Position numbers and translations under genes: made by a program
From: Pelagibacteraceae bacterium AG-325-E08
GTDB taxonomy: Bacteria; Pseudomonadota; Alphaproteobacteria; Pelagibacterales; Pelagibacteraceae
Direction: 5' to 3'
Assembly (NCBI GenBank): GCA_003282985.1
Contig: QBYE01000005.1
Span: forward strand, 1 to 64,000
DNA length: 64,000 bases
In this document: in pieces, positions 24,190-59,530 of the stretch
Numbering within the stretch: the stretch's first letter is position 1
How the letters are laid out: every line of letters begins with the position of its first letter
Notes under the pieces: generated by a model
What the model was told of the DNA's origin: nothing
The model's database searches: none
Seen by the model: only the letters and a program-made list of their open reading frames with translations

Positions 24190-24957
24190 ATGAAATTAGG
24201 ATTTATTGGAACAGGAAAAATAGCTTCTTCAGTTATTTTAGGAGTATGTAAATCTAAGATAAAGTTTAGACAAATAATAGTATCACCAAGAAATAAGAGA
24301 ATAGCAAACAATTTAAAGAAAAAATTTAAAAAAGTAAGTATTGCGAAAAACAATCAAGATGTAATTAACAAATCAAATTGGATATTTTTATCTGTCACTC
24401 CAAAAGTAGGAGATAAAATTATTAAAGACTTAAAATTTAAATCTAATCAAACAATTATAAGTTTTATTTCAACAATAAATCTTTCTGAACTTAAAAAAAT
24501 GATCAAAGTAAAATCTAAAATTGTTAGAGCAATACCACTGCCTCCAATTTCTATCAAGAAAGGCCCAGTTCCTATTTGTCCACCTAATAGACAAGTAAAA
24601 AGTTTTTTTGATAAAATTGGATCTACCATAGAAATTAAAAATGAAAAACTGTCTATTAATTTTTGGTCGACATCTGGGATGATGGCGTCTTATTACGAAA
24701 TGTTAAGAGTAATGAGTAATTGGCTTGTAAAAAAAGGCATAAAGAAACAAGATGCTCAAAAATATATAACTTCATTATTTTTAGCTTTGTCAGAGGATGC
24801 AGTTGTAAATTCTAACAAGGATTTAAAATATTTAGTGAAAGAGTCTCAAACACCAAAGGGACTTAACCAACAAGGTCTTAATACGATGTCAAAAAAAGGT
24901 GTTTATAAATCTGTTGTTAATACTTTAAACAGTATTCACAAAAGATTGAATAAATAA
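24190..24957 (+). CDS. proC: Pyrroline-5-carboxylate reductase family protein
   Basis: MKLGFIGTGKIASSVILGV Rossmann N-terminus, SVTPKVGDKI, TPKGLNQQGLNTM at C-terminus. Confidence 0.78.
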   Translation: MKLGFIGTGKIASSVILGVCKSKIKFRQIIVSPRNKRIANNLKKKFKKVSIAKNNQDVINKSNWIFLSVTPKVGDKIIKDLKFKSNQTIISFISTINLSELKKMIKVKSKIVRAIPLPPISIKKGPVPICPPNRQVKSFFDKIGSTIEIKNEKLSINFWSTSGMMASYYEMLRVMSNWLVKKGIKKQDAQKYITSLFLALSEDAVVNSNKDLKYLVKESQTPKGLNQQGLNTMSKKGVYKSVVNTLNSIHKRLNK

Positions 24958-24960
24958 TTA

Positions 24961-25749
24961 ATGTCTCAAAATATTTTAGAAATTAATAATCTTTCAAAAT
25001 TTTTTGGAGGATTGGCTGCTGTATCGGATTGTTCATTAAAAGTAAAAAGGGGAACTATCACAGGGATCATAGGTCCGAATGGATCTGGTAAAACAACTTT
25101 ATTTAATTTAATAGCTGGAAATTTAAAATCATCTAATGGAAATGTTAAATTTAATAATGAAGATATTACAGATACTCCATCATATGAATTATTCTCTAAA
25201 GGTTTATTGAGAACTTTTCAAATTGCACATGAATTTACGAATTTATCTGTCCTAGAAAATCTAATGATGGTACCTGGAAATCAATCTGGTGAAAAATTAA
25301 CGAATGTTTTGTTAAAACCTTCTCTTGTTGCGAAAGAAGAAAATTTAATTAAAGAAAAAGCAAAAGAGGTAGTAGAATTTTTAAATTTAAGTCACCTTTC
25401 AAATGAACTTGCTGGAAATCTATCTGAAGGTCAAAAAAAACTCTTAGAGCTTGGTAGAACAATGATGGTTGATGCAAAATTAGTATTATTAGATGAGGTT
25501 GGTGCTGGAGTTAATAGAACATTGCTTAAAGATTTAGGCACTGCAATTCAAAAATTAAATCAAGAAAAAGGTTATACTTTTTGTATGATTGAACATGATA
25601 TGGATTTTATAGGGAGACTTTGTGATCCAGTTATTGTTATGGCGGAAGGTTCAGTTTTATTCGAGGGTACTGTAGAAAACGCAAAAAAAGATCAAAAGGT
25701 TATAGAGAGTTATTTAGGTAGAGGATCAAAATTAAAGGATAAAAACTGA
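24961..25749 (+). CDS. LivG-type ABC ATPase (second system)
   Basis: GPNGSGKTTLFNLIAG, LSEGQKKLLELGRTMM, LLLDEVGAGVN. Confidence 0.92.
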   Translation: MSQNILEINNLSKFFGGLAAVSDCSLKVKRGTITGIIGPNGSGKTTLFNLIAGNLKSSNGNVKFNNEDITDTPSYELFSKGLLRTFQIAHEFTNLSVLENLMMVPGNQSGEKLTNVLLKPSLVAKEENLIKEKAKEVVEFLNLSHLSNELAGNLSEGQKKLLELGRTMMVDAKLVLLDEVGAGVNRTLLKDLGTAIQKLNQEKGYTFCMIEHDMDFIGRLCDPVIVMAEGSVLFEGTVENAKKDQKVIESYLGRGSKLKDKN

Positions 25750-26456
25750 TGGCTTTCTTTGAGGGAAATAAAATGACTGGTGGTTATGGAAATGGTCCTG
25801 ATATTATTCACTCATGTTCTGTTACTGTTGATAGGGGGGAAATTGTATCTATTCTTGGACCCAACGGTGCAGGAAAATCTACAGCTATGAAGGCTATGTT
25901 AGGACTTCTTAATTTAAAGTCAGGTACAGTAACTATAGATGGAAAAGATATTTCAAACTTGTCACCCCAAGATCGAGTGAAACAAGGAATTTCATTTGTA
26001 CCTCAAACTAAAAATGTATTTGCAGGTATGACTGTTGAGGAAAATTTGGAGATGGGAGCATTTTTATTTGATAAAGATTTAAAAAAATTGATAGATGATA
26101 TTTTTGATTTATTTCCAATTTTAAAAGAAAAAAGAAATCAATTAGTTGGAGAGCTATCAGGAGGACAAAGACAACAAGTTGCTTTAGGAAGAGCATTGAT
26201 GATAAAGCCTTCAGTATTAATGTTAGATGAACCTACAGCTGGAGTTTCTCCGATAGTAATGGATGAGTTATTTGATCATATAATAAAAGTAAAAAAAACT
26301 AATGTTGCCATACTTATGGTTGAACAAAATGCCAAACAAGCATTAAACATTTCTGATAGAGGATACGTATTAGTAACAGGAGAGAATCGTTATTCTGGTA
26401 CGGGAAAGGAATTGTTGAATGACTCAAGAGTAAGAAGCTCATTCTTAGGTGGTTAA
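25749..26456 (+). CDS. LivF-type ABC ATPase (second system)
   Basis: GPNGAGKSTAMKAMLGLL, LSGGQRQQVALGRALM, MLDEPTAGVSP. Confidence 0.92.
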   Translation: MAFFEGNKMTGGYGNGPDIIHSCSVTVDRGEIVSILGPNGAGKSTAMKAMLGLLNLKSGTVTIDGKDISNLSPQDRVKQGISFVPQTKNVFAGMTVEENLEMGAFLFDKDLKKLIDDIFDLFPILKEKRNQLVGELSGGQRQQVALGRALMIKPSVLMLDEPTAGVSPIVMDELFDHIIKVKKTNVAILMVEQNAKQALNISDRGYVLVTGENRYSGTGKELLNDSRVRSSFLGG

Positions 26457-27467
26457 ATGGATTTTATAAACGCAATTATTCTTTTACTAAACTATATATT
26501 TATTCCAGCTTTAACTTATGGTTCACAGTTAGCACTAGGCGCAATATTCGTGACATTGATTTATGGTATTTTAAGATTTGCCAATTTTGCTACCGGGGAC
26601 ATGATGTCATTTGGAACTATGGCGGCAATTTTGTTTACTTGGTATTTTCAATCCTTGGGTGTTTCGTTGGGTGTTTTGCCAACAGCACTTATAGCTATTC
26701 CATTTGCAATCATTTTTATGATTTTTTATATGCTATTGATTGATAAATTTGTTTTCAAATACTATAGAAATCAAAAAAGCCCACCTGTTCAACTTGCTAT
26801 GGTTAGTATAGGTGTGATGTTTGTTACTCAAGCAGTAGTAAGAATTATTATAGGGCCTTCAGATAGAAGATTTTTTGATGGTGAGAAATTCATAATTAAA
26901 GCAGGTGAATTTAAAGAAATTACAGGTTTAAATGAAGGTCTTGCAATTAAATCAACTCAAATATTAACTATACTGGTAACACTAATTTTAGTTTCAACTC
27001 TTTTTTGGTTTTTGAACAAAACTAAGACTGGAAAAAGTATGAAAGCTTATTCGGACAATGAAGATCTAGCTTTACTCTCAGGAATAGATCCCAAAAAAAT
27101 AGTTATGATTACTTGGATAATTGCTGGAATATTAGCAACTATTGGCGGAACTCTTTATGGTTTAGACAAAAGCTTTAAACCATTCACATACTTTAACAAT
27201 ATGCTACCCATATTCGCTGCAGCAATAGTTGGGGGAATTGGTAATCCTTTTGGAGCATTTTTAGGAGGATATGTAATTGCTTTCTCCGAAATATTTTTAA
27301 CATATGCTTATAAGAAATTTTTTATGTATGTTTTACCAGAAAGTATGGAGCCTGATGGTTTAGTTCAGTTACTTTCAACCGATTACAAATTTGCAGTTTC
27401 TTTTTCAATATTAGTAATTGTGTTGTTATACCGACCGTCTGGAATATTTAAAGGTAAGGTATTGTGA
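26457..27467 (+). CDS. LivH-type ABC permease (second system)
   Basis: GAIFVTLIYGILRFANFATGDMMSFG; YSDNEDLALLSGIDPKKIV. Confidence 0.9.
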   Translation: MDFINAIILLLNYIFIPALTYGSQLALGAIFVTLIYGILRFANFATGDMMSFGTMAAILFTWYFQSLGVSLGVLPTALIAIPFAIIFMIFYMLLIDKFVFKYYRNQKSPPVQLAMVSIGVMFVTQAVVRIIIGPSDRRFFDGEKFIIKAGEFKEITGLNEGLAIKSTQILTILVTLILVSTLFWFLNKTKTGKSMKAYSDNEDLALLSGIDPKKIVMITWIIAGILATIGGTLYGLDKSFKPFTYFNNMLPIFAAAIVGGIGNPFGAFLGGYVIAFSEIFLTYAYKKFFMYVLPESMEPDGLVQLLSTDYKFAVSFSILVIVLLYRPSGIFKGKVL

Positions 27468-28834
27468 GAAAAAACCTAAACGTAATTGCTGCCTACAGTA
27501 TTATGATGGGATTAATCATACTTGTTGGAATATTTCAGTCATGGAATATTGCTTTATCAATATTTAATCTTTGTTTAATCTCAGCTGTCATGACGATGGG
27601 TGCTAATATCCAATGGGGTTATGCTGGTCTAATTAATTTTGGAATAATGGGTTATACAGCTTTAGGTGGCTTAGCAGCAGTTTTAATTTCAGTTAATCCA
27701 GTTCAGGAAGCTTGGAGTGTAGGAGGTTCTAATATTTTACTTAGCTTATTCTTAATTATAGGAATGGTATTGGCTATAAGATATGTTTTAAAAAAATATG
27801 ATAAATCAAAACTTCGAACTTATATAATTGCCACAATTATCATTTCAGGAATTATTTTAGTTAGATTTATTTCTGAGCCTGGTATTGAAGCAATAGAAGA
27901 AGTAAATCCTGCTAAAACAGGTTTTCTTGGTGGCTTTGGATTACCAATTATTTTTTCATGGATAGTAGGGGCAGTATTTGCAGGTGGTTTAGCCTTTATT
28001 ATTGGTAAAGTAGCTTTAGGCCTAAGAGCTGATTACTTAGCAATAGCAACTCTACTTATTTCAGAAATCGTAATAGCAATTATTAAACATGAAGACTGGT
28101 TAACAAGAGGTGTTAAAAATGTAATAGGCCTGAAGCGCCCAGCACCATATGAAGTAGATCTTCAGCAAACAGATTGGTTCATAAATTTAATTGAAAAATT
28201 TAATTTCAGTAAATTAAATTTGATACAAGATTTTTCAGAAAGACAAAGTGCACTTAACCAGTTGGTTATTGAAGGTTCTTCAATTTTCGTAAAACTTTGT
28301 TATTCAGGATTATTTTTAGTTGTAGTAATTATTCTTTTAATATTAACACAGAAAGCTCTTTATTCTCCATGGGGACGAATGATGAGAGCGATAAGAGATA
28401 ATGAAGAGGCAGCAAATGCCATGGGTAAAAATGTTGTTAAGCAACATCTTCTAATATTTGTTTTAGGCTCAGCTATAGTTGGAATTGCCGGAGCAATGTT
28501 AGTAACTCAAGATGGGTTATTTACCCCTGGAAGCTACAGACCAATGCGATATACTTTTTTAATTTGGGTAATGGTAATTGTTGGAGGAAGTGGAAATAAT
28601 TTTGGTGCAATTTTAGGTGGTTTCGCAGTTTGGTTTTTATGGATTGAAGCTGCACCAATTGCACTCTTTGTAATTAATCTAACTACATCTGGATTAGCTG
28701 ATACTCATTTTTTAAAACAACATTTAATTGAAAGTGTTCCTTACTTTAGGTTTTTAATGATGGGAATAGGCTTATTATTAATTATGAGATACAGACCAAA
28801 AGGTATACTTCCTGAAAAAATAGAAATAAAATGA
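27464..28834 (+). CDS. LivM-type ABC permease (second system), GTG start
   Basis: GANIQWGYAGLINFGIMGYTALGG; RAIRDNEEAANAMGKNVVKQHL; RPKGILPE C-terminus. Confidence 0.9.
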   Translation: MRKNLNVIAAYSIMMGLIILVGIFQSWNIALSIFNLCLISAVMTMGANIQWGYAGLINFGIMGYTALGGLAAVLISVNPVQEAWSVGGSNILLSLFLIIGMVLAIRYVLKKYDKSKLRTYIIATIIISGIILVRFISEPGIEAIEEVNPAKTGFLGGFGLPIIFSWIVGAVFAGGLAFIIGKVALGLRADYLAIATLLISEIVIAIIKHEDWLTRGVKNVIGLKRPAPYEVDLQQTDWFINLIEKFNFSKLNLIQDFSERQSALNQLVIEGSSIFVKLCYSGLFLVVVIILLILTQKALYSPWGRMMRAIRDNEEAANAMGKNVVKQHLLIFVLGSAIVGIAGAMLVTQDGLFTPGSYRPMRYTFLIWVMVIVGGSGNNFGAILGGFAVWFLWIEAAPIALFVINLTTSGLADTHFLKQHLIESVPYFRFLMMGIGLLLIMRYRPKGILPEKIEIK

Positions 28835-28838
28835 AATT

Positions 28839-28910
28839 ATGAAATATATTATAACAGGTGCTGCAATAGCTTGGGCTTTGTATATAGCAGATAAATATAT
28901 TTTTTTTTAA
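28839..28910 (+). CDS. Candidate 23-aa hydrophobic micropeptide downstream of livM
   Basis: ATG..TAA encodes MKYIITGAAIAWALYIADKYIFF; 4 nt after livM stop. Too short for the ORF track. Confidence 0.35.
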   Translation: MKYIITGAAIAWALYIADKYIFF

Positions 28911-28913
28911 AAA

Positions 28914-28953
28914 AAACCCCCAACAAACCAATGCTGGGGGTTTAAATTTTAAG
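28914..28953 (-). terminator. Intrinsic terminator for the minus-strand LivK-like gene
   Basis: aaaccccca...tgggggttt stem; read on minus it is followed by a U-rich tract (ttttttttaaaaaaaa). Confidence 0.85.
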
Positions 28954-28958
28954 ATAAA

Positions 28959-30164
28959 TTATCTTTGTTTTTTAGTTTTGAATTTTCCGCCTTTAATTTC
29001 TTGTTCTAAGAAAGAACCTTCAGCCTCACCGACGCTAGTAAAAGTAACTCCAGTTGCACCCTCATAATCAACTTTTTTACCTTTTGCTAGTAAATCCAAA
29101 CCTTTTTTTAGTTCACCTGGATAAATTTTTGTTCCAGGACCATTAGCAACATCCATCACATTTTTTGCAATTGATGCTCTATCAGCTGATCCACCTGCTT
29201 GCATTGCTAAAATAATTAAAGCAGCAGCATCATAAGATTCACCAGTGTAAGGACCTGAGCTATCGATACCAGCAGCTTTTGCTACATTACCGAATACACC
29301 TGCACCTTTACCAGTTGAACCTGGCATTGAACCAAAAGATTTTTTCAAGTCTTTTCCAAATGCATCAACTAACGACTGACCGATCATACCATCAGATAAA
29401 ATGAATTTATCAAACGCACCAGAGTCTAGAGAGGCTTGGATAATTCCTTTACCACCTTGGTCTAAGTAACCAATTACAGCTACTGCATCACCACCTGCTG
29501 AAGCAAGAGTTGCTACTTCAGAAGAGTAATCCGCTTTACCATCTTCATGAGCGGTTACAGTAGTTACTTTGATACCATGAGCTTCAACAGCTGCTTTGTA
29601 AACATCTGCTAAACCTTTTCCATAGTCATTGTTAGTATAAGTGATTGCAACACTTTTAACTTTTCTATCTTTCGTAATATCAGCTAAAATTTGACCACCT
29701 CTAGCATCAGATGGAGCAGTTCTGAAGAAATACCCTTTGTCATCTAAAGTAGTTAATCCTGGTGATGTAGCTGATGGTGAAATCATTACTACACCGTTTG
29801 GTACAGCAACATTTGAAGCTATTGCTCCAGTTACACCTGAACAGTCTGCGCCCATAATAGCCGCTACACCTTGCGCAATAACACCTTCAGCTGCTGCGGT
29901 TGCCGCTGCTGAGTCCACACAAGTAGAATCTGCTCTTACTACTGAAATAGTTTCCCCACCTAATAGTGATCCTGAGTCTGAAGCTTCTTTGAAAGCAAGC
30001 TCAGCAGAGGCAGCCATTGCTGGTGTTAGAGATTCAATAGGACCAGTAAATCCTAATATAATTCCCATTTTAACATCTGCAAATGTATTCGTTGTAAAAG
30101 TTGAAACGAATATAAAAGCAGCAATAAATAGTTTTTTCATTATCTTCCTTTTAATTGTTAACAA
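28959..30164 (-). CDS. LivK-type ABC substrate-binding protein (second system)
   Basis: Signal peptide; MGIILGFTGPIESLTPAMAASAELAFKEA, CSGVTGAIASNVAVPNGVVMISPSATSPGLT. Confidence 0.9.
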   Translation of the reverse strand: MLTIKRKIMKKLFIAAFIFVSTFTTNTFADVKMGIILGFTGPIESLTPAMAASAELAFKEASDSGSLLGGETISVVRADSTCVDSAAATAAAEGVIAQGVAAIMGADCSGVTGAIASNVAVPNGVVMISPSATSPGLTTLDDKGYFFRTAPSDARGGQILADITKDRKVKSVAITYTNNDYGKGLADVYKAAVEAHGIKVTTVTAHEDGKADYSSEVATLASAGGDAVAVIGYLDQGGKGIIQASLDSGAFDKFILSDGMIGQSLVDAFGKDLKKSFGSMPGSTGKGAGVFGNVAKAAGIDSSGPYTGESYDAAALIILAMQAGGSADRASIAKNVMDVANGPGTKIYPGELKKGLDLLAKGKKVDYEGATGVTFTSVGEAEGSFLEQEIKGGKFKTKKQR

Positions 30165-30215
30165 TTTATAAAAGATAAATTAAATCTAATTTTCAAAAAA
30201 TTTTCAATAACCAAT

Positions 30216-31073
30216 TTAACTTATTTTATGCAGAAAGATTACAGAACTAATCACAATAATGCCGCCTATTACAAATAAGAATGACGGAACCTCTCCAAAT
30301 ATAAGAAAACTTAGCAAAATACCAAAGATTGGAAACAAGGAATAGAAGGGAAAAATTTTACCTACTGTATAAAATTTATACAAATAGAACATTAATAGAT
30401 GTGCACATAAAGAAACAATAATTGCTTGGTATGAAATTAATATCCAAGACTCCATTTCAATTAGTCTGATATTCTTAATTACCTCACCTTCTAATATTGA
30501 TGAAATAAAAATTAAAATAACAAAACCAAAAAGACCTGTGCTTGCATTAATTAGACTGATACTTAAATCTTTTAATTGTCTAGAGTAAACTTGTGCTAAC
30601 CCAAAAAATAATGCCATTAAACTCGCAAATAATAAACCAAGAAAATTGTCAGTTAGTTTTGGATCAAAAAATATTATTAGAATCCCTAAAAAAGAAGTAA
30701 AAATTAATATCCACTTTTTTCTACTGATGTTTTCATCAAGTATAAAAGCACTTGCAATAATACCAAATGGAATTGCCAATTGTGATCCTAGTATTATTGG
30801 AGAAATTATAGAAGAATGGAATAATGATAAGTTCATAAATACGTAAACCATTACTCCCATAGATAATGAAAAGAATATTAAGGACTTATAATATTTTTTT
30901 TTTGGTAATTTGAACTTCCAAAATGGAATTAAAATCAATAACACTAATGCCATACGCAGGGACGCCATTAGTATTGGTGGTACCGAATTGTTTAAAGCCA
31001 ATTTAGCTACAGGAAAAGCACTACCATGTGCAGCCATTATAAAGAGTAAAATTAATAAATGTTTGATTGGCAA
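30216..31073 (-). CDS. EamA/DMT-family transporter (probable TTG start at 31073)
   Basis: Two EamA repeats (AAHGSAFPVAKLALNNSVPPILMASLRMALVLLILIPFW...). Track ORF extends to 31208 inside the ALDH gene; TTG at 31073-31071 is the best in-frame start just after the ALDH stop. Confidence 0.75.
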   Translation of the reverse strand: MPIKHLLILLFIMAAHGSAFPVAKLALNNSVPPILMASLRMALVLLILIPFWKFKLPKKKYYKSLIFFSLSMGVMVYVFMNLSLFHSSIISPIILGSQLAIPFGIIASAFILDENISRKKWILIFTSFLGILIIFFDPKLTDNFLGLLFASLMALFFGLAQVYSRQLKDLSISLINASTGLFGFVILIFISSILEGEVIKNIRLIEMESWILISYQAIIVSLCAHLLMFYLYKFYTVGKIFPFYSLFPIFGILLSFLIFGEVPSFLFVIGGIIVISSVIFLHKIS

Positions 31074-31077
31074 ATCA

Positions 31078-32559
31078 TTAACCCATTGTGAATGGATCAG
31101 ACATTGGCTTATCAGAGGAGTTATACCAAGTTGTTTTAATTCTCGTATACTCTTTAATTGACTCGATACCCGCTTCTTTTCCATAGCCACTATCTTTAAT
31201 TCCACCAAAAGGTGCCATTGGAGATATTAATCGATAAGTATTTATAAATACTATCCCAGCTCTTATTGCTTTTGAAACCCTAAGGCCTCTTGCAAAGTTA
31301 GATGTATAAACTCCAGATGATAATCCATATTTGTTATCATTCATTTTTTTTATAACTTCTTCTTCTTTATCAAATTTCATAACGGATAATATTGGTCCAA
31401 ACAATTCATTCTCTGCTACTGGAAGGTTATGATTTTCACATTCAATAATTGTTGCAGGAAAATAATAACCTTTATTTGAAACAGATGATCTCTCACCACC
31501 ACATCTTATTTTTCCACCTTGTTCAGTAGTTGCCTTAATATTTTTTTCTATATTTTCTAATTGTTTAAAACTATTTAAAGGTCCCATCTGAGTATCTTCC
31601 TCCATAGGTCCACCTAATTTTATTTTTTTTGCTTTAGTTATCAATTTGTCTAAAAATTCATTATAGATTTTAGATTGTAAATAGAGTCTTGATCCAGCAA
31701 TACAACTTTGCCCACTAGCACCAAATATTCCTGCAGTAATTCCATTTAAAGCATTTTCTTGATCAGCATCATCAAACACTACGACAGGACTTTTTCCACC
31801 AAGTTCTAAACTTACTTGTGATAAATTTTCAGCAGAATTTTTTACAATATGTTTGGCTGTTTCAGGGCCACCAGTGAATGCAATTCTTTCCACAAAATTG
31901 TGTGTAGTTAGTGCTTTACCACATGGTTCTCCTAATCCGGTAATTATATTAATTACTCCTTTGGGTATTCCAGTTTTTTCTATTAATTTTGCAAATTCTA
32001 AAAGGGTTACTGGGGCAAGTTCTGATGCTTTTATTACTACTGTATTTCCCATAGCAAGTGCAGGAGCAAGCTTTACAGCAGTCAATAGCATTTGAGAATT
32101 CCAAGGAATAATTGCTGCTACAACACCAATCGGTATCCTTGTTGTAGTAACTTGCATGTCAGGTTTATCAATTGGAACTACAGTTCCTTCAACTTTGTCA
32201 GCCAGTCCAGCAAAATAATCATAATATTCTGCAATATAATTAGCCTGGGTTTTTGTTTCTCTATAAATTTTTCCAGTATCTATAGTTTCTATTTTTCCAA
32301 GATGCTCTGCATTTTCTCTTAGTTGATCTGCAATTAATCTTAAGTATTTTGCTCTATCTCTCGGGTGAAGTATTGACCAACTATTTTCAAAAGCATTTTG
32401 TGCTGATTGAACAGCTTTATCTACATCTTTCTCATTAGCTTCAGGAACTGTTGCCCACACCTCATTGTTTTCTGGGTTAAGAGTTTGTATTTTCTTACCC
32501 GATGAGGAGTCTACCCACTCACCATTTATATACATTTTAAAATTTTGAATTTTTTGCAT
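31078..32559 (-). CDS. NAD(P)-dependent aldehyde dehydrogenase
   Basis: LELGGKSPVVVFDDAD, GQSCIAGSRLY catalytic Cys, PFGGIKDSGYGKEAGIE. Confidence 0.93.
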   Translation of the reverse strand: MQKIQNFKMYINGEWVDSSSGKKIQTLNPENNEVWATVPEANEKDVDKAVQSAQNAFENSWSILHPRDRAKYLRLIADQLRENAEHLGKIETIDTGKIYRETKTQANYIAEYYDYFAGLADKVEGTVVPIDKPDMQVTTTRIPIGVVAAIIPWNSQMLLTAVKLAPALAMGNTVVIKASELAPVTLLEFAKLIEKTGIPKGVINIITGLGEPCGKALTTHNFVERIAFTGGPETAKHIVKNSAENLSQVSLELGGKSPVVVFDDADQENALNGITAGIFGASGQSCIAGSRLYLQSKIYNEFLDKLITKAKKIKLGGPMEEDTQMGPLNSFKQLENIEKNIKATTEQGGKIRCGGERSSVSNKGYYFPATIIECENHNLPVAENELFGPILSVMKFDKEEEVIKKMNDNKYGLSSGVYTSNFARGLRVSKAIRAGIVFINTYRLISPMAPFGGIKDSGYGKEAGIESIKEYTRIKTTWYNSSDKPMSDPFTMG

Positions 32560-33342
32560 TTAATTATTAATAAAATTCTTGATATTCATATTAACATCAT
32601 CTGCACACTCTATACTACAAAGATGTTTTCCATTTTTAATTTCAATAAAAATTGAATTAGGTAGGTCTTTAGCTAATTCTTGAGACATTTTTGGAGTCGA
32701 TCCTGGGTCATTAGATCCAGTCATAATTAAAGTCTTTGAAGTAATTTTTTTGATTATTAATGAATTATCGTTGTGATTAGCAAATAATTCGTAAGCTTTA
32801 AGAAAGTTTTTATGATCCTCGGGTTCTTTAGTTAGTATTTTCATAAACAAATCGTAAGTAGAAGGATTGTTTTCTAGATAATTATCACTAAACCATCTTT
32901 TTAGTGCTTGTTTTGATATTGGTTTATTTAGTTTAGCTTGGTTATATCTATCTAAAACTAGTGCTCTTTCAGATTCAGATCTTTTATAAGTTGTCCCGAT
33001 TAATATAAGCTTATTAACTTTATCTTGGTAATTTGAGGCAAAGTCTAAGGCTATTAGAGATCCAAGAGAAAACCCAACAAGATTAATCTTATCTACTTGG
33101 AGATTATTTAGTATTTCATCAAGTTGTTTCGTAAAATCATTGAAGGTTAACTTTTCTTTTTTACAAGGTGTTTTTCCATGACCCAATAAATCATATGTAA
33201 TTATAGAAAATTCATTTAATTTACTAATTTGTGATTGCCACATTTGATGATCAAGGCCAACTCCATGAATAAAAACCAATGGAGTTGTGTTTTTTTTTAA
33301 AAAAAAATAGTGATTTTGATTTGAATCAAAATTATCAGACAT
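32560..33342 (-). CDS. Alpha/beta hydrolase
   Basis: FIHGVGLDHQMWQSQI, VGFSLGSLIALDFA nucleophile elbow, GKHLCSIECAD His region. Confidence 0.85.
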   Translation of the reverse strand: MSDNFDSNQNHYFFLKKNTTPLVFIHGVGLDHQMWQSQISKLNEFSIITYDLLGHGKTPCKKEKLTFNDFTKQLDEILNNLQVDKINLVGFSLGSLIALDFASNYQDKVNKLILIGTTYKRSESERALVLDRYNQAKLNKPISKQALKRWFSDNYLENNPSTYDLFMKILTKEPEDHKNFLKAYELFANHNDNSLIIKKITSKTLIMTGSNDPGSTPKMSQELAKDLPNSIFIEIKNGKHLCSIECADDVNMNIKNFINN

Positions 33343-33346
33343 TAAA

Positions 33347-33934
33347 TTATTTTGGATCTAAACCCATTTCTTTCATATCTTGATAACGATCTCCAGTTCT
33401 GGCATGTGCTCTACCACTTGAAGCACCTCCGATTGCAATTACTATTTCATCATCAAATGGTGCATCGTGAATTGTAAACTCATGAGTTAAATAATAAGGT
33501 CTTAAACCTGAGTCGGTTTTATGCATCATTGGTATAGATATTTTAGAGCCTGCAGGACCTCTAGTGTTTGTAAAACTTAAATAAGATGTTCCACCAACAG
33601 CATCTCTAAATTTATTTCCAAATCTTAAGGTATGAATGAATGCTGATGCATGTTCAATTTCACCGTTTAAGCCAACAGTTCCTGCTTTACCATAAGCTAA
33701 AATTTTTTCTGGTGATCCAATTTCTTTTATTAATTCTGGAACTAAAATATCACCAAGTTTTGGAGCCAAATCTAAAATGATTGGTTTTAAATCTTCGACA
33801 AAACCTTTTCCAGCCCAAGGATTTTTGAACACAGCAGCTACTGATACTAATAAGACTGGTTCTTTAGCTTTCTTTCCACCCTCAATGAAAGTTTTATCAA
33901 CAAACTTTGTAAACTTTCTAAGTTCTAAATCCAT
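33347..33934 (-). CDS. 'Amino acid synthesis' (AA_synth / DUF1185) family protein
   Basis: ~195 aa; AVFKNPWAGKGFVEDL, YGKAGTVGLNGEIEHASAFIHTLRFGNKFRDAVGG, GGASSGRAHARTGDRYQDM match my recollection of this family. Confidence 0.78.
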   Translation of the reverse strand: MDLELRKFTKFVDKTFIEGGKKAKEPVLLVSVAAVFKNPWAGKGFVEDLKPIILDLAPKLGDILVPELIKEIGSPEKILAYGKAGTVGLNGEIEHASAFIHTLRFGNKFRDAVGGTSYLSFTNTRGPAGSKISIPMMHKTDSGLRPYYLTHEFTIHDAPFDDEIVIAIGGASSGRAHARTGDRYQDMKEMGLDPK

Positions 33935-35100
33935 TAACTTGCTTTTTCTATATTAGAAGAGTCTAAATTAATTTTTGGAATTACCTCGTCATTAAATAAT
34001 TTAATGCTTCTCATGCAAGCTTTATGATCTATACCGGGGAAGTTTGACCAAACTTGTAGATTTTGTAAATTTAATTCAGATTTTAATTCGTTAATTTTAC
34101 TAACAACATACTCAGGAGTACCAAATAATAAATTTCTTTTATGAAGAAAATCATAGTTTAGTAAATCCAATTTATGTTTTGTCTCAGGAAGTTCTTCGCC
34201 AGGATCCATGTGATTTCCTAAGCCTCTCCAATGACAAACCCATTTCATATAATTAATGATGTGTTCACCAGCCATTTTTTCTGCTTCTTCCATAGTTTCA
34301 GCAACAAACATATCTCTTACTAAAGATATACCTTCTCCTAATGGAACATCTCTATTTTCAGCCTTTGATTTTGCATCTCTATAAATTTCAAATCTTTTCT
34401 TTAAAGCTTTAACAGTTGGTATCCACATAATTGTATTTAAACCATTCTGTGCAGCCCACTCAATTGATCTAGCGCCATCAACAACTTGCCAAATAGGAGG
34501 ATGCGGTGATTGTTTTGGTTTAGGAACGATACTTATTTTTTTTATTTCATTTGTTTTTGTATCTAAAAATTTTTCACTTGGCGGACTCATATCATGTTGC
34601 CAAACAAAGTTTGGTGATGGATAAGTATAAAATTCACCTTGGTGATTAAAAAACTCTTCTGTCCAAGCTTTTTTCATGATTGTTAAAGACTCTTCGAATA
34701 GTCTAAAATTTTTAGCTTGGTCTTTAAGATCAGCCTCTTTATTCATATTTATTGCTTCTCTTCCATAAATCCCTCGGCCAATACCTACATCAACTCTGCC
34801 ACCTGATAATTGATCTAGTAAAGCTATGTCTTCTGCTAATCTTATTGGGTTATGAAATGTAATGACATTGCAGGCTTGTCCAATTCTTATTTGTTTAGTT
34901 CTAGCTGCTGCATCAACACCCATCATTAATGGATTAGTACAGGACTCCATTCCTTCATGATTAAAATGATGCTCAGTATACCAAATTGAGTCCCAATTAT
35001 TTTCATCACAAAAAGTTGTGATCTCTTTAGTTTCATCAAGTAGTTGATTATATGGCTTGTGATTCCAATTCGTGGTGTTGCAAAAATAACCAAATTTCAT
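33934..35100 (-). CDS. LLM-class (bacterial luciferase-like) flavin-dependent monooxygenase
   Basis: WYTEHHFNHEG, AARTKQIRIGQACNVITFHNPIRLAEDIALLDQLSGGRVDVGIGRG, GTPEYVVSKI. Confidence 0.9.
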   Translation of the reverse strand: MKFGYFCNTTNWNHKPYNQLLDETKEITTFCDENNWDSIWYTEHHFNHEGMESCTNPLMMGVDAAARTKQIRIGQACNVITFHNPIRLAEDIALLDQLSGGRVDVGIGRGIYGREAINMNKEADLKDQAKNFRLFEESLTIMKKAWTEEFFNHQGEFYTYPSPNFVWQHDMSPPSEKFLDTKTNEIKKISIVPKPKQSPHPPIWQVVDGARSIEWAAQNGLNTIMWIPTVKALKKRFEIYRDAKSKAENRDVPLGEGISLVRDMFVAETMEEAEKMAGEHIINYMKWVCHWRGLGNHMDPGEELPETKHKLDLLNYDFLHKRNLLFGTPEYVVSKINELKSELNLQNLQVWSNFPGIDHKACMRSIKLFNDEVIPKINLDSSNIEKAS

Positions 35101-35240
35101 TCGAACCTCCTTAAATAATCAAATCTAAGACGATCGATCCCACTTTCGTATTTTGTAAATATCGACGAGTTATGTATCGCTCAATCAAGACTGTAATTTA
35201 ACTAGACTATTTAATCAATATATATTTAATCAGCAATTAA

Positions 35241-35984
35241 ATGAAACTAACTAAAATAGAACCAAAATTTATTAAAAAACATAACCCAAGGGTAGGATTA
35301 ATTACTTTAGCAAGTGATTTTAGGATTGAAAAAGATTTTAACAATATAATTTATGGTAAAGACATAGACTTATTTTGTAACAGAATTCAAAGTTACAATC
35401 CCTTAACAAATGAAACATTAAAAAAAATGGCAGATGATATTCCTAAAGTTGTTAAGAATATCTTACCTGATCAAAAAATTGATTGTATAGCCTATGGATG
35501 TACTTCAGGAACAATTGCTGCAGGATATGCATCTATTTATGAAAAAGTTAATTCAACAAAACCAAATACAAAAGTTACAACACCAATTACATCTGCAATT
35601 AATGCATTAAAGGCACTTAAGATAAATAAATTATCTGTATTCACACCTTATACAGATGAAATAAATCAGTCAGTAATTAATTATTTTAAAAAAGAAAATA
35701 TAGAAATCACTGGACTAACTTATTTTGATATAGCCTCAGATTTAGATATAGGAAAAGTTAATCCAGATCATTTATTTGATGTTTTAAATAAAATAGATTT
35801 GTTAAATAGTGATGCATTGTTTGTTTCTTGTACTGCGTTACCCGTGTTATCAATTATTAAAGATCTAGAAAAAAAAATGAGTAAAATTGTTTTATCTAGC
35901 AATCAAACTTTAATATGGGACACACTTAAACAGATTGATTTTAAAAGTAAAGTTGAAGGCTACGGTGAATTATTTAATAATTAG
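35241..35984 (+). CDS. Asp/Glu racemase-superfamily protein resembling ectoine utilization protein EutA / maleate cis-trans isomerase
   Basis: RVGLITLASDFRIEKDF, IAYGCTSGTIAAG (Cys), VFTPYTDEINQSVINYF, LFVSCTALPVLSII (Cys), SSNQTLIWD. Confidence 0.8.
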   Translation: MKLTKIEPKFIKKHNPRVGLITLASDFRIEKDFNNIIYGKDIDLFCNRIQSYNPLTNETLKKMADDIPKVVKNILPDQKIDCIAYGCTSGTIAAGYASIYEKVNSTKPNTKVTTPITSAINALKALKINKLSVFTPYTDEINQSVINYFKKENIEITGLTYFDIASDLDIGKVNPDHLFDVLNKIDLLNSDALFVSCTALPVLSIIKDLEKKMSKIVLSSNQTLIWDTLKQIDFKSKVEGYGELFNN

Positions 35985-35987: not shown

Positions 35988-37157
35988 ATGAATTTTACTA
36001 GAGAAGAATACAAATCAAGATTAAAAAAAGTCCAAGCTTCAATGCAGAAAAAAGGTATTGAACTTTTAATCTCACAAGATCCATCTAATATGAATTATTT
36101 AACAGGTTATGACGCTTGGTCATTTTATTATGCTCAATGTGTAATGGTACATATAAACGCCGATGAACCAATTTGTTTTGTTAGAAATCAAGATGCGGGA
36201 GGCGCATATATAAAAACCTATCTAAAAGATGAAAATATAATTAAGTATCATGAAAAATATATTCATACATGGCCGTTACACCCTTATGATGCTTTAGTAG
36301 ATCTTATTAAAGAAAGAAAGTGGGACAAACTCTCAGTAGGACTTGAAATGGATAGTCATTATTTCACCGCTTATTGTTACGAGAAAATTAAACAAGGTTT
36401 ACCAAATGCAAAAATTTTGGATTGTGAGCGGTTAGTAAATTGGGTTAGAGTTGTAAAATCTGATGCAGAAATAAAATTTATGAAAGCTGCATCTCAAATT
36501 TCTCAACTAGGAATGAAAAAGGCTTTTGAAGTTATCAGTCCAGGAGTAAGACAATGCGATGCAGTTTCAGAAATATATACTACATTAATAAAAGGAACTC
36601 CTGATTTTGGAGGAGATTATTCATCAATAGTTCCAATGATACCAACTGGAAAAGGTACATCTGCTTCACATTTAACGTGGTCAGAGGATAAATTTGTTGA
36701 AGGAGAAGCTACAATTATTGAATTATCAGGTGTTAATAAAAAATATCACTGTCCTATGGCTCGTACAGTTCTACTAGGAAAACCAGACCAAAAAAAAATT
36801 GATACTATGAAGAAGACTAATGAAGCGCTTCAAGCAGGAATAGATCTAGTTAAAGCAGGAAATACTGCTGATGATGTTGCTCAAGCTTTTTGGAAAGTGT
36901 TAGATAAATATGGAATAGATAAAACTTCAAGAACTGGATATTCCATTGGTATAGGATATCCACCTGATTGGGGCGAGCATACTTTAAATATTTCTAAAGA
37001 TGATATGACGGTTTTACAACCTAATGTTACTTTTCATATGATTGCAGTGATGCAATTTGGGAATTGGGGAGTTGAAGCATCTGAAGCAATTAGAGTTACA
37101 GATAAGGGTTATGAATTATTTTGTAACTTTTCTAAAGAACTTCATGTGAAAAGCTAG
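35988..37157 (+). CDS. M24-family (creatinase-fold) hydrolase resembling ectoine hydrolase DoeA/EutD
   Basis: YLTGYDAWSFYYAQCVMV, RNQDAGGAYIKT, GGDYSSIVPMIPTGKGTSASHLTW, KKYHCPMARTVLLGKP, SRTGYSIGIGYPPDWGEHTLNI match recalled DoeA/EutD sequences. Confidence 0.8.
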   Translation: MNFTREEYKSRLKKVQASMQKKGIELLISQDPSNMNYLTGYDAWSFYYAQCVMVHINADEPICFVRNQDAGGAYIKTYLKDENIIKYHEKYIHTWPLHPYDALVDLIKERKWDKLSVGLEMDSHYFTAYCYEKIKQGLPNAKILDCERLVNWVRVVKSDAEIKFMKAASQISQLGMKKAFEVISPGVRQCDAVSEIYTTLIKGTPDFGGDYSSIVPMIPTGKGTSASHLTWSEDKFVEGEATIIELSGVNKKYHCPMARTVLLGKPDQKKIDTMKKTNEALQAGIDLVKAGNTADDVAQAFWKVLDKYGIDKTSRTGYSIGIGYPPDWGEHTLNISKDDMTVLQPNVTFHMIAVMQFGNWGVEASEAIRVTDKGYELFCNFSKELHVKS

Positions 37158-37213: not shown

Positions 37214-38293
37214 ATGAATAAAGAATTCGTAAAATTTGACAAAGTAGATAAAAGTTATGACGGTAAAATACTTGTCGTAAAAGATCTTCAATTAGACATT
37301 GAAGAAGGAGAGTTTGTTACTATGTTAGGACCTTCTGGTTCTGGTAAGACTACTTGTTTAATGATGTTGGCTGGATTTGAAACACCAACCCATGGTGAAA
37401 TTTATTTAGACGGAAAAGCAATTTCAAGTATTCCACCCCATAAAAGAGGTATCGGAATGGTATTTCAAAATTACGCTTTGTTTCCACATATGACAGTTTA
37501 TGAAAATTTAGCATTTCCTTTAAGAGTTAGAAAAATTCCTAAAGATGAAGCAGATAAGAAAATTGATAAAGCTCTATCAATGGTTTCACTGCAAGGATTT
37601 GCTCAAAGAATGCCAGGTCAATTGTCTGGGGGACAGCAACAAAGAGTTGCAGTAGCGAGGTCACTAGTATTTGATCCACAACTAGTTTTAATGGATGAAC
37701 CTCTGGGTGCTTTAGATAAAAATTTGAGAGAGAGTATGCAGTATGAAATTAAACATATTCATGAAAGTATTGGTGTGACTGTTGTTTATGTAACACATGA
37801 CCAAAGTGAAGCTCTTACAATGTCAAATCGTATTGCAGTTTTCAATGATGGTAAAGTTCAACAGCTCTCAAGTCCTGATGAACTGTATGAAAAACCAGTT
37901 AATTCATTTGTTGCAGAATTTATTGGAGAAAATAATACTTTTGCTGGAGAAGTGTCAGATATTTCTGGTGGAAAATGTAAAGTGAAGTTAGCTAATGCAG
38001 AAATATTAGCAAATCCTATTTCTGTTAAAGGAAAAGGGGATAAAACTACCGTATCTTTAAGACCTGAGAGAGCTTTAATTAATCCAAGTGATAAGATGGA
38101 TAATGTTCATAACGGAAAAATTGAAGAAGTTATTTACCATGGTGACCATACTAGAGTCAGAATTAATTTATTAGGAAATTCTGAATTTATTCTCAAAGTA
38201 CCAAATAGTTCATCTAATCTTGATATTAAATTAGGTAATGAAATCAAGATTGGTTGGAATAGTGAAGATGCTAGAGCATTAGACCCAAAATAA
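37214..38293 (+). CDS. potA: Polyamine-type ABC transporter ATPase (PotA-like)
   Basis: GPSGSGKTTCLMMLAGFETPTHGEIYLDGKAI, LSGGQQQRVAVARSL, TOBE domain. Confidence 0.85.
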   Translation: MNKEFVKFDKVDKSYDGKILVVKDLQLDIEEGEFVTMLGPSGSGKTTCLMMLAGFETPTHGEIYLDGKAISSIPPHKRGIGMVFQNYALFPHMTVYENLAFPLRVRKIPKDEADKKIDKALSMVSLQGFAQRMPGQLSGGQQQRVAVARSLVFDPQLVLMDEPLGALDKNLRESMQYEIKHIHESIGVTVVYVTHDQSEALTMSNRIAVFNDGKVQQLSSPDELYEKPVNSFVAEFIGENNTFAGEVSDISGGKCKVKLANAEILANPISVKGKGDKTTVSLRPERALINPSDKMDNVHNGKIEEVIYHGDHTRVRINLLGNSEFILKVPNSSSNLDIKLGNEIKIGWNSEDARALDPK

Positions 38294-38331
38294 ACACCAA
38301 TTACATCTTGTATAACTTACAAAAAGGGCTG

Positions 38332-38360
38332 TTGACTCTCATTATCGATCTTGTTGTAAT
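38332..38360 (+). promoter_or_regulatory. Near-consensus sigma70-type promoter for the substrate-binding protein gene
   Basis: TTGACT (38332-38337), 17-nt spacer, TGTAAT (38355-38360), then SD ggagga before ATG 38396. Confidence 0.65.
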
Positions 38361-38395
38361 CTACTTTTATAAAAAAACGTTTAAACGGAGGAAAA

Positions 38396-39517
38396 ATGAA
38401 AACACTTAGTAAATTATTACTAGCCATTTCTTTTGCTATCTCTGTAACTACTTCAGCATTTGCAGTAACTGCAGTGTCTTGGGGTGGAGCTTACACAGAG
38501 TCTCAAAAGTTAGGTTATGGTGATCCTACTGGTAAAGCCCTTGGTATAACTATCAATTGGGTTGATTATTCAGGTGGATTATCTGAGATCAAAGCACAAA
38601 AAGAAGCTGGCAAAATTACGTGGGATATAATCGACGTATTTGCAATGGATACTATCAATGGATGTGATGAAGGATTATTTGTTGAATTTGATTTTGACAA
38701 AGATTTCCCACCTGCACCAGATGGAACTCCTGCAAGTAAAGATTTCTTTACTGCAATGCCAAGTAAATGTGCTGTAGGAAACATTTTATATTCTTGGAAC
38801 TACGCTTATAACAAAAACAATGTTAAAGGCACTCCAAAGACTATCAAAGATTTCTTTAACACTAAAAAATTCCCTGGAAAAAGAGCTATCTACAAAGGCG
38901 CTCTAACAAACTTAGAAATCGCTTTAGCTGCAGATGGAATTAAACCAGGAAAAGGTGGAGCAAAAATCTACAAAGCTTTAAATACTGAAAAAGGTGTTGA
39001 TAGAGCTATGAACAAGATCAAAGAATTATGCACAGATCCAAAAGGTGGATGTGTATTTTGGTCTGCAGGTGCTCAACCACCAGAACTATTAGTTTCGGGT
39101 GAAGTTGTAATGGCTACAGGTTGGAATGGTAGATTCTTCAATGCAGAAGTTGGAGAAGGTGCACCAATCGTACAAGTATGGGATGGACAAGGTCTTGACT
39201 ACGAGTATTTCGTACAAGTTAAGGGTGGACCAAACGATGCTAATGGTATGGCTAAAAAAGCTTTAGCTATGATGACTAGTACAGAGATGTTAGCAGGAAG
39301 TGCAAAATACATTGCATACGCTCCTTGGAGAAAATCTTCTATAGCGATTATGGAAGCAGGAGAGCCATGGTATAAAGATGGTAAAACTAACATGGTACCA
39401 CAAATGCCAACTGCACCACAAAACACTAAAAACTATTTCTTAGTTGACCCTATTTTCTGGGCTGACAACGGAACAGAGCTAGGTGAGAAGTGGGAAGCTA
39501 TGAAAGCTGGTCTATAA
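38396..39517 (+). CDS. Polyamine-type ABC transporter substrate-binding protein (PotD/PotF-like)
   Basis: Signal peptide; VSWGGAYTESQKLGYGDPTGKALGITINWVDYSGG; type II SBP; flanked by PotA- and PotBC-like genes. Confidence 0.87.
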   Translation: MKTLSKLLLAISFAISVTTSAFAVTAVSWGGAYTESQKLGYGDPTGKALGITINWVDYSGGLSEIKAQKEAGKITWDIIDVFAMDTINGCDEGLFVEFDFDKDFPPAPDGTPASKDFFTAMPSKCAVGNILYSWNYAYNKNNVKGTPKTIKDFFNTKKFPGKRAIYKGALTNLEIALAADGIKPGKGGAKIYKALNTEKGVDRAMNKIKELCTDPKGGCVFWSAGAQPPELLVSGEVVMATGWNGRFFNAEVGEGAPIVQVWDGQGLDYEYFVQVKGGPNDANGMAKKALAMMTSTEMLAGSAKYIAYAPWRKSSIAIMEAGEPWYKDGKTNMVPQMPTAPQNTKNYFLVDPIFWADNGTELGEKWEAMKAGL

Positions 39518-39555
39518 TTTAAGTTTTATTAAACTTAATTATATATTATAATTTA

Positions 39556-39585
39556 AGGGCGGTTATTTGATAACCGCCCTTTTTA
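39556..39585 (+). terminator. Intrinsic terminator downstream of the substrate-binding protein gene
   Basis: agggcggttat-ttg-ataaccgccct perfect 11-bp stem followed by ttttt. Confidence 0.9.
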
Positions 39586-39588
39586 TTT

Positions 39589-40842
39589 ATGAGCTCAGAA
39601 ACACAAAAAATTTTAACGACAGACGGTATACCTTTAGAAGTAAGTCTTAAGAAAGCCGAGAGAAGAAACAAGATAAAAGCTTTTTTACTTGTTGCTCCAC
39701 TATTATTATTTTTGATTATTACTTACGTGTTTCCAATTGGTGATATGCTTATGAGAAGTGTTGATGATAAAATGGTGACTGAAATGCTCCCTAAAACATT
39801 TAAAGCGATGGAAAAGTGGGATGGAAAAGAATTACCAGAAGAAGATGTTTTTAAAGCCTTCTATTTAGACTTTAGACAATTAGTTGATGAAAAGCGTGAA
39901 GGTAAATTATCAACTCAACTTAATTATACAAAAAATGGATTTAAAAGTATTATTAAAAAACTTAGAAGAAAATCAAAAAACTTTGAAGAAGGAAATTATA
40001 AAGAACAAATAATGGCAGTCCATAAAAGATGGGCTGATGTTGAATATTGGAAAGCAATTAAACGAAGAGCCCCAGCATATACAAGTCAAAAATATCTAAA
40101 AGGTATGGATATGTTTAAAAATGAAAATGGGGAAATTGTTAGTGTTTCTGAGGATAGAAGAATTCACAGAATTTTATGGCTTAGAACTTTAGAAATTGCA
40201 TTTTTTGTAACGCTATTTTGTTTTTTGATGGCTTACCCAATAGCTCATTTGTTAGCTACTTTACCCATGAAGTATAGTAACTTACTAATGATCTGCGTGT
40301 TGCTTCCGTTTTGGACGTCTCTTCTTGTAAGAACTGCTAGCTGGATGATTTTGTTACAACAGCAAGGTGTCGTAAATGATTTCTTTGTAGGAATAGGTTT
40401 AGTTGCTGATGATGCAAGGCCTGAGATGATGTACAATAAAACAGGGACATATGTTGCAATGACACAGATTCTGTTGCCTTTTATGGTTTTACCACTTTAC
40501 AGTGTTATGAAAACTATTTCACCAAGCTTAATGAGGGCTGGAAAATCATTAGGTGGAACACCAATAGTTGCGTTTTGGAAAGTTTATTTTCCTTTAACAA
40601 TTCCTGGAATTGGTGCTGGTTGTTTACTGTGCTTTATATTAGCAATTGGTTATTACATTACACCCGCCTTAGTTGGAGGAGCTTCAGGAACATTGATTAG
40701 TAACCAAATAGCATTTCACATGAAAAGTACACTTGATTGGAGTTTTGCATCAGCGATGGGTTTAATGTTGCTTGCTGGAGTTTTAGCAATTTACTGGGTT
40801 TATAATAAATTAGTTGGAATTGATAATATAAAGTTAGGATAA
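39589..40842 (+). CDS. Polyamine-type ABC permease (PotB-like) with a large insertion after TM1
   Basis: BPD permease EAA-like region (MRAGKSLGGTPIVAFWKVYFPLTIPG); ~130 aa charged segment after the first TM. Confidence 0.85.
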   Translation: MSSETQKILTTDGIPLEVSLKKAERRNKIKAFLLVAPLLLFLIITYVFPIGDMLMRSVDDKMVTEMLPKTFKAMEKWDGKELPEEDVFKAFYLDFRQLVDEKREGKLSTQLNYTKNGFKSIIKKLRRKSKNFEEGNYKEQIMAVHKRWADVEYWKAIKRRAPAYTSQKYLKGMDMFKNENGEIVSVSEDRRIHRILWLRTLEIAFFVTLFCFLMAYPIAHLLATLPMKYSNLLMICVLLPFWTSLLVRTASWMILLQQQGVVNDFFVGIGLVADDARPEMMYNKTGTYVAMTQILLPFMVLPLYSVMKTISPSLMRAGKSLGGTPIVAFWKVYFPLTIPGIGAGCLLCFILAIGYYITPALVGGASGTLISNQIAFHMKSTLDWSFASAMGLMLLAGVLAIYWVYNKLVGIDNIKLG

Positions 40843-40847
40843 ATAGA

Positions 40848-41702
40848 ATGGCTTTACCAAAACATACAGAACTACACTATAGGATTTGGCATTATTTTTA
40901 TTTAACAATCTGTGGTCTTGTCTTCTTTTTCTTAATTGCACCACTGTTTGTAATATTTCCACTATCTTTTAATGCTGAAGAATTTTTAAGTTTTTCAGAC
41001 GGAATGAAAAGTTTAGACCCAGATGCTTTCTCATTAAGATGGTACAAAGATATGGTTTATGGAACAAAAAATCCTTGGGGCTTAGCTGCCAAAAATAGTT
41101 TTATCATTGCAATTTTTGCAACAATTGGTTCAGTTTTATTGGGAACAGTTGCTGCTCTAGGTTTAAGTAGTAGGCATATGCCCTACAAAGGTATAATCAT
41201 GGCAGTTTTAATATCTCCAATGATTGTTCCATTAATTATTTCTGGTGTAGCAATATTTTTCTTTATGGCTAAAGCTGGTTTAGCAGCAACTCATACAGGT
41301 ATAGTTCTAGCACATATTATTCTAGGTACACCATTTGTAGTTATTACTGTTACTGCTACTTTATCAGGATTTGATCATAGTGTTACGAGAGCCGCGGCAA
41401 GTCTTGGTAGTAATCCAGTTAATACTTTTATGAAAATTACTTTACCTTTAATTTTACCCGGTGTGATATCTGGAGGACTTTTTGCTTTTGTAACTTCTTT
41501 TGATGAAGTTGTAGTAGTTTTATTTTTAGCAGGTTTAGAAAACACGACTATACCAATTCAAATGTGGACAGGTCTAAGAGAACAGTTAAGTCCAACTATT
41601 CTTGCTGTTGCAACTTGTCTAATTATTTTATCAACATTAATATTAGTAACCGCTGAACTTTTAAGAAGAAGATCTGAGAGACTCAGAGGAATAAACCGAT
41701 AG
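40848..41702 (+). CDS. Polyamine-type ABC permease (PotC-like)
   Basis: TRAAASLGSNPVNTFMKITLPLILPGVISGGLFAFVTSFDEVVVVLF. Confidence 0.88.
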   Translation: MALPKHTELHYRIWHYFYLTICGLVFFFLIAPLFVIFPLSFNAEEFLSFSDGMKSLDPDAFSLRWYKDMVYGTKNPWGLAAKNSFIIAIFATIGSVLLGTVAALGLSSRHMPYKGIIMAVLISPMIVPLIISGVAIFFFMAKAGLAATHTGIVLAHIILGTPFVVITVTATLSGFDHSVTRAAASLGSNPVNTFMKITLPLILPGVISGGLFAFVTSFDEVVVVLFLAGLENTTIPIQMWTGLREQLSPTILAVATCLIILSTLILVTAELLRRRSERLRGINR

Positions 41703-46306: not shown

Positions 46307-46326
46307 GGAAAGGTTAGGAGTCTGCT

Positions 46327-59357: not shown

Positions 59358-59374
59358 GAATTAAATTAACATAA

Positions 59375-59530
59375 TTACCTAAAAAAAGAAAAAATTGTTT
59401 CTCTATAATATATAAGGTTAACAACAATAATTATTAATATAGCTAAAATAACTCCATACTTCGATTTTGGAAAAGCAACACCTCGCATTTTGCTAGGTCT
59501 TAATTCTTTATTATTTTCTTCTTCTTGCAT
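59375..59530 (-). CDS. Candidate 51-aa single-TM small protein
   Basis: Minus-strand ORF MQEEENNKELRPSKMRGVAFPKSKYGVILAILIIIVVNLIYYRETIFSFFR; below the ORF-track size cutoff; fills the gap between glnT-like and the Amt operon. Confidence 0.6.
   Translation of the reverse strand: MQEEENNKELRPSKMRGVAFPKSKYGVILAILIIIVVNLIYYRETIFSFFR

Follow-up and report, generated by a model that had tools for sequence, protein, structure and literature searches.

In a 64,000-nucleotide stretch of contig QBYE01000005.1 (the window) from Pelagibacteraceae bacterium AG-325-E08, we identified a compact minus-strand operon that we consider, with good confidence, to be a catabolic module of the trigonelline (Tgn) type for an N-methylated pyridine carboxylate (pyridine betaine). 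The gene content, relatedness, conserved catalytic residues and synteny described below suggest that this SAR11 operon probably breaks open an algal N-methylated pyridine compound for food, and the individual reactions, the substrate and the uptake system are all predicted from them. Compared with the Tgn pathway, the module has a replaced oxygenase and no dedicated reductase. The source genome (G000; G and L numbers denote genomes and loci) belongs to the Pelagibacterales (SAR11), is 1.02 Mb in size and 89% complete, and has SAR11 single-cell genomes and HTCC9565, a cultured strain that also carries the cluster, as its closest named relatives. All five minus-strand genes proposed in the initial annotation were confirmed by Pfam and are tightly packed, with successive junctions of a 1-bp overlap, 4 bp, 0 bp and 4 bp:

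33934 to 35100, minus strand: luciferase-like monooxygenase (LLM)-class flavin monooxygenase (Pfam Bac_luciferase), predicted ring-opening oxygenase and non-orthologous replacement of TgnB
33347 to 33934, minus strand: AA_synth protein (PF06684; Pfam, E=2.4e-64), TgnF-type accessory protein
32560 to 33342, minus strand: alpha/beta-hydrolase (Pfam Abhydrolase_1), TgnD-like, predicted N-formyl/enamide hydrolase
31078 to 32559, minus strand: aldehyde dehydrogenase (ALDH; Pfam Aldedh), TgnC-type, predicted to convert the ring-cleavage aldehyde to a carboxylate
30216 to 31073, minus strand: EamA/DMT transporter (Pfam EamA), variable member, with a TTG start at 31073

Kinship to the Tgn pathway was clearest against an Acinetobacter PK01 plasmid (L169), on which AA_synth, an alpha/beta-hydrolase, tgnA, tgnB, tgnC and a succinate semialdehyde dehydrogenase (SSADH) are encoded together. 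The window ALDH is 51% identical to the annotated TgnC of this plasmid and 33% to the nearby SSADH, and the window AA_synth is 54% identical to the TgnF-type protein adjoining tgnABC; the corresponding values are 27% for the hydrolase and 30%, over 162 aa only, for the LLM. A study of coumarin degradation described TgnF of the A. baylyi trigonelline pathway as homologous to a DUF1185/PF06684 protein (PMC7913881). In the class scan, TgnF-type proteins fell at 49-63% and other PF06684 members at 41% or less, with a gap between them, and the PDB relatives of the window AA_synth are 2qtp and 3byq. Phylogenetic analysis placed the ALDHs of these clusters, those of SAR11 included, in one clade separate from SSADH. 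On annotated plasmids, the combination of AA_synth, alpha/beta-hydrolase, flavin reductase, LLM and ALDH was also found in Chimaeribacter, Leisingera, Rhizobium, Agrobacterium, Thalassospira, Aminobacter and Sinorhizobium (S.) meliloti pSymA, in the last beside nodL/noeAB and with Pot-type ABC genes and SSADH, and the gene set recurs in Rhizobiales, Rhodobacterales, Burkholderiales and Enterobacterales. The initial annotation had found no named pathway for the operon, a statement overturned by the identities to TgnC and TgnF and by the presence of the gene set in many orders, while its proposed route of oxidation, aldehyde oxidation and hydrolysis for an N-containing compound is supported, the genes being conserved as a unit. 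Because most of the neighbourhoods read point to N-heterocycle catabolism, our analysis also suggests that the name given to PF06684, 'amino acid synthesis', is misleading.

Linkage within SAR11 was counted over 80 named loci, with loci having enough sequence as denominators; as the loci were picked by AA_synth similarity, the fractions describe that sample, not SAR11 overall. The LLM, AA_synth, hydrolase and ALDH genes were contiguous in 67/67 loci showing both ends, apart from the insertion of a gene for a thiamine diphosphate (ThDP)-dependent enzyme, and this order is therefore not a matter of chance. A Liv-type binding protein gene lay no more than 2.5 kb downstream of ALDH in 41/62 loci, a plus-strand EutA-like gene stood head-to-head with the LLM gene within 400 bp in 45/65, and EamA was missing or divergent in several. 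The four-gene core is thus the unit, and EamA, the importer genes and the plus-strand half with its EutA-like, DoeA-like and Pot-type genes are variable. Liv ABC genes were co-located in both SAR11 variants, with and without the ThDP enzyme, and in a second Pelagibacterales family (L167).

The inserted ThDP-dependent enzyme, 566 aa long, separates AA_synth from the LLM in SAR11 loci with an LLM of 75-78% identity. L167, of the second Pelagibacterales family, has it too, and it adjoins the module in G303, G308 and G377. Loci with the enzyme, in a SAR11 subclade and other Alphaproteobacteria, are L065 (at 8304-10004), L076, L166, L167, L161, L162 and L164. Its closest models are those of sulfoacetaldehyde acetyltransferase (Xsc) and acetolactate synthase, and it scores below the cut-offs of both.

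The oxygenase of the SAR11 operon differs from TgnB. A tree of 58 LLM proteins, with long branches flagged, resolved a type I that includes the annotated TgnB, a type II formed by proteins of Agrobacterium/R. etli, Aminobacter and others, and a type III made up of the SAR11 proteins and that of G220 (L139). LLMs unlinked to the module (Peribacillus, G375/G132/G226) grouped on the type-III side, and LLMs from that side are also part of Tgn-like clusters outside SAR11, in the genomes G220 and G441. As a separate observation, a Rieske ring-hydroxylating oxygenase (L139, 12573-13778) adjoins the type-III LLM cluster of G220, which has a flavin reductase.

Several results weigh against a Tgn-type assignment. 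The SAR11 LLM lineage stands apart from TgnB with 99/99 support on a branch of 1.64, and LLMs of type I share on average 25% identity with those of type III. The names tgnA, tgnB and tgnC at L169 are NCBI annotation transferred by homology, not by experiment on that strain. No PF01613 (TgnA-type) flavin reductase was found in the source genome (89% complete) or in five complete cluster-bearing SAR11 genomes, in a search that detected this family in G020 and in all but one of 14 control genomes. The operon also has no second ALDH or dedicated SSADH (TgnE), and the SSADH relative at G000:C2 (40%) is of a kind that occurs in cluster-less SAR11 too. Reduced flavin may be supplied from elsewhere, since FMN_red (PF03358) proteins, candidate sources of FMNH2, are encoded in all nine Pelagibacterales genomes tested. 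Set against TgnABCDEF of Acinetobacter baylyi, the SAR11 operon likewise brings together a TgnC-type ALDH, a TgnF-type AA_synth, an LLM oxygenase and a putatively TgnD-like hydrolase, and differs in the lineage of that LLM (~25%), in being without a TgnA-type reductase in the genome or TgnE in the operon, and in its nearby Liv-type importer, EamA transporter and ThDP-enzyme variant.

W40/E43/H44/H45 are invariant in 15 cluster LLMs, with the EHH motif in register with bacterial luciferase alpha (1brl); the S92/D212/H240 triad and R121, R132, R149 and W150 are invariant in 16 cluster hydrolases, TgnD-type proteins included, at an overall identity of ~26%; and the cluster ALDHs retain C286 and E252. 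Clusters of types I and III average 26% identity in the hydrolase, 51% in the ALDH and 55% in AA_synth. The enzymes that diverged are, to judge from their predicted roles, the two that would act directly on the ring and the amide, and the ALDH and accessory protein stayed alike, a pattern that fits either a changed substrate or a replaced oxygenase acting on the same one. Since the LLM and TgnB belong to different lineages and the search for a TgnA-type reductase was negative, the operon may act on a substrate other than trigonelline.

In the parent trigonelline pathway the ring is cleaved directly between C5 and C6, the resulting aldehyde is oxidized and the N-formyl group is hydrolysed, and pyrABCDE of Arthrobacter 68b is similar by description, with a two-component flavin monooxygenase that cleaves the pyridine ring directly, followed by a dehydrogenase and an amidohydrolase. 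For the SAR11 operon we propose that the LLM oxygenase, using FMNH2 from a reductase encoded elsewhere, would open the ring next to the nitrogen (C5-C6 in trigonelline) to give an N-formyl enamine bearing an aldehyde, that the TgnC-type ALDH would convert this aldehyde to a carboxylate, and that the TgnD-like alpha/beta-hydrolase would remove the N-formyl group and split the product. Trigonelline would thereby yield formate, CO2, methylamine and succinate semialdehyde, and homarine, by analogy, formate and an N-methylglutamate precursor. The TgnF-type AA_synth would be an accessory protein, stimulation of a dehydrogenase being its reported role in the parent pathway. Genes of the same contig could receive the methylamine or N-methylglutamate:

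58032 to 59357, minus strand: type III glutamine synthetase (GS)-like ligase, probable gamma-glutamylmethylamide synthetase (GmaS; TIGR03105, 632 bits, cut-off 469.6), possible methylamine sink
61786 to 63998, minus strand: MgsC/MgsB-like (N-methylglutamate synthase) genes with a Glu_synthase domain; an MgsA-like gene continues beyond the window

The best PDB match of the ligase is 7cql (E=9e-173), with glutamate--methylamine ligase 9qur at E=2e-102, and the MgsABC-like gene order spans G000:C5 61786-64981. This region (58032-63998, on to 66474 of G000:C5) also holds an ammonium transporter and a second GS-like gene, and a diaminopropionate ammonia-lyase-type pyridoxal phosphate enzyme at 56901-58028 (392 bits, cut-off 276) adjoins the GmaS-like gene.

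Trigonelline and homarine are the leading candidate substrates and about equal; the likelihoods given here for each substrate are conditional on the Tgn-type assignment. Homarine (N-methylpicolinate) is a tentative choice in which the LLM would open C5-C6, the ALDH would form the carboxylate, the hydrolase would remove the N-formyl group, and reduction would give N-methylglutamate and then, via N-methylglutamate dehydrogenase (Mgd), glutamate. Heal et al. considered TgnA/TgnB unlikely to act on homarine owing to steric hindrance (PMC8269262), so that a different oxygenase would be expected, and a divergent LLM is what the operon encodes. A route through an N-methylglutamate precursor is consistent with the reported part of Mgd in homarine catabolism (PMC13390433), two full-length Sox/Mgd-type alpha-subunit paralogues occur in most SAR11 genomes tested, and homarine is present in Synechococcus and diatoms (PMC8269262). 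These paralogues are, however, found in cluster-less SAR11 too, no dedicated imine reductase is encoded in the operon, the sole ProC-like gene being a single-copy housekeeping candidate, and in the class sample the TgnF-type AA_synth (family f22) accompanies type-I TgnB only. Points in common with the homarine pathway of Ferrer-Gonzalez et al. (2026) are the possible substrate class and genes for N-methylglutamate chemistry in the genome. Ocean concentration, which we had considered as an argument for homarine, is weakened by a correction to Heal et al. (PMC8269262) that cut the homarine values 25-fold and withdrew a growth test of R. pomeroyi; with the corrected data homarine is similar to trigonelline in the subtropical gyre, and abundance therefore does not decide the substrate.

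A comparably tentative choice is trigonelline, in which case another LLM would have replaced TgnB and perform the same reaction. Its TgnC- and TgnF-type partners have been kept at 51-54%, the genome has an SSADH relative outside the operon, and the methylamine released could be assimilated through GmaS/Mgs of the same contig, but the oxygenase and hydrolase, the enzymes touching the ring and the amide, are those that diverged, and the operon is without TgnE. Two further considerations were rejected: a role as dedicated imine reductase for the pyrroline-5-carboxylate (P5C) reductase at 24190-24957, this being the only ProC-like gene and one also found in cluster-less SAR11, and, for separating homarine from trigonelline, the presence of Sox/Mgd and SSADH, both of which occur with and without the cluster. 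Somewhat unlikely is a different N-heterocycle or betaine for which the downstream enzymes of the module are reused, the ThDP variant handling a different product. The module occurs with LLMs of three lineages and with importers of several kinds (Pot, ProXWV, cytosine permease and Liv), and the ThDP enzyme is inserted in SAR11 and in other Alphaproteobacteria, yet the conservation of the TgnC-type ALDH argues for a similar ring-cleavage aldehyde.

Returning to the Tgn-type module as a whole, it may, with a likelihood that we put at somewhat short of even, constitute a ring-opening pathway of SAR11's own for a marine pyridine betaine or related N-heterocycle, in which an LLM of another lineage is joined to Tgn downstream enzymes with no dedicated reductase, and a second clade is coupled to an undescribed ThDP-dependent step. 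The 2026 homarine study reportedly places its operon in SAR11, and the pathway would be less new if that operon is the one described here. Cells of SAR11 rank with the most abundant types in the ocean, and the operon oxygenase was found in 50/148 Pelagibacterales genomes sampled. If the operon degrades trigonelline or homarine, SAR11 would act as a sink for an osmolyte of algae and cyanobacteria and as a source of methylamine or N-methylglutamate, and the genes would serve as markers in metatranscriptomes.

Upstream of the LLM gene, the operon faces a divergent plus-strand half:

35101 to 35240, no strand: divergent intergenic region of 140 bp between the LLM and EutA-like genes
35241 to 35984, plus strand: EutA-like protein (Asp/Glu racemase/arylmalonate decarboxylase superfamily; TIGR02990, 185 bits, below the cut-off of 318)
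35988 to 37157, plus strand: DoeA-like M24 hydrolase (TIGR02993, 470 bits, below the cut-off of 613)
37214 to 41702, plus strand: Pot-type ABC importer of a separable plus-strand unit, with an SBP_bac_8 binding protein

The EutA/DoeA-like pair is real and divergent from the operon, as the initial annotation had described, but its further proposal that both halves form one uptake and catabolic unit, with the EutA-like and DoeA-like enzymes and the Pot importer in the pathway, now appears improbable. The head-to-head arrangement seen in 45/65 loci with sequence to show it speaks for a single pathway, whereas it occurred in 0/10 ThDP-variant loci, in which the Pot-type importer is not beside the LLM either, and five other genes separate the halves in one complete SAR11 genome. 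Among the Tgn-type clusters read outside SAR11, none contains an M24 gene and only L151 has a EutA-superfamily neighbour, a distant one (26%). Dispersal in relatives, which the initial annotation had named as evidence against its proposal, is seen for the link between the halves but not for the minus-strand core. Given the incomplete linkage in SAR11 and its absence from the ThDP-variant loci, we regard the EutA/DoeA/Pot half as an operon of its own that is often adjacent. The pair falls in the same superfamilies as EutA and DoeA/EutD of ectoine and hydroxyectoine utilisation, the DoeA-like protein being close to DoeA of the PDB (6twk, E=9e-108); unlike that system, both proteins are below the NCBIfam equivalog cut-offs and no DoeB or EutB/C lies beside them. 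Among annotated plasmids, the nearest relative of the EutA-like protein is encoded in Photobacterium (L170, 7001-13437), where its neighbours, an M20 aminoacylase, a TRAP transporter and an M24 peptidase, hint at an ectoine-like unit.

Rut-like pyrimidine degradation, which the operon resembles in its LLM oxygenase and alpha/beta-hydrolase logic and, superficially, in pairing these with a chorismate-mutase-fold protein as in RutA/D/C, was rejected as extremely improbable, as no Rut-specific family reaches its cut-off (80 bits for RutD in the hydrolase, cut-off 238.5), no RutA model is among the LLM matches, no RutB/RutC lies beside the operon and no RutF-type PF01613 protein is encoded in the genome.

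At its 3' end the operon is followed by these features:

28959 to 30140, minus strand: Liv-type periplasmic binding protein (Peripla_BP_6), end of the minus-strand unit and possible substrate-uptake component
28914 to 28943, minus strand: terminator-like hairpin 3' of the binding-protein gene, with a 12-bp stem and T tract
24961 to 28834, plus strand: LivG-LivF-LivH-LivM ABC permease/ATPase genes, convergent with the operon

The EamA open reading frame as listed (330 aa, to 31208) is over-extended relative to a 285-aa homologue of another SAR11 genome, and its start is therefore likely the TTG at 31073, giving 285 aa. The minus-strand unit probably extends through the binding-protein gene, which is on the operon strand after a 75-bp gap and precedes the sole terminator-like match in the scanned interval 28700-35400, where 2.7 matches are expected by chance. 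A promoter-like scan of the divergent 140-bp gap gave nothing above chance. Beside the sole ProC-like gene and the Liv-type importer, a glutarate dioxygenase GlaH/CsiD is encoded at 23244-24155 (457 bits, cut-off 333).

Two further observations concern other catabolic genes. On Sagittula and Sulfitobacter plasmids (L213, L214), the other PF06684 subfamily is represented by tandem pairs. The operon around them also encodes a xanthine dehydrogenase (XDH)-type hydroxylase, 6-hydroxynicotinate reductase, UPF0280, a Rieske oxygenase, MarR and a Liv-type ABC importer, and has the look of a further pathway for a pyridine ring. In the window itself, an aldehyde dehydrogenase comes after an agmatinase-family protein (above cut-off) at 45347-47760, and the two possibly form a route for guanidino compounds.

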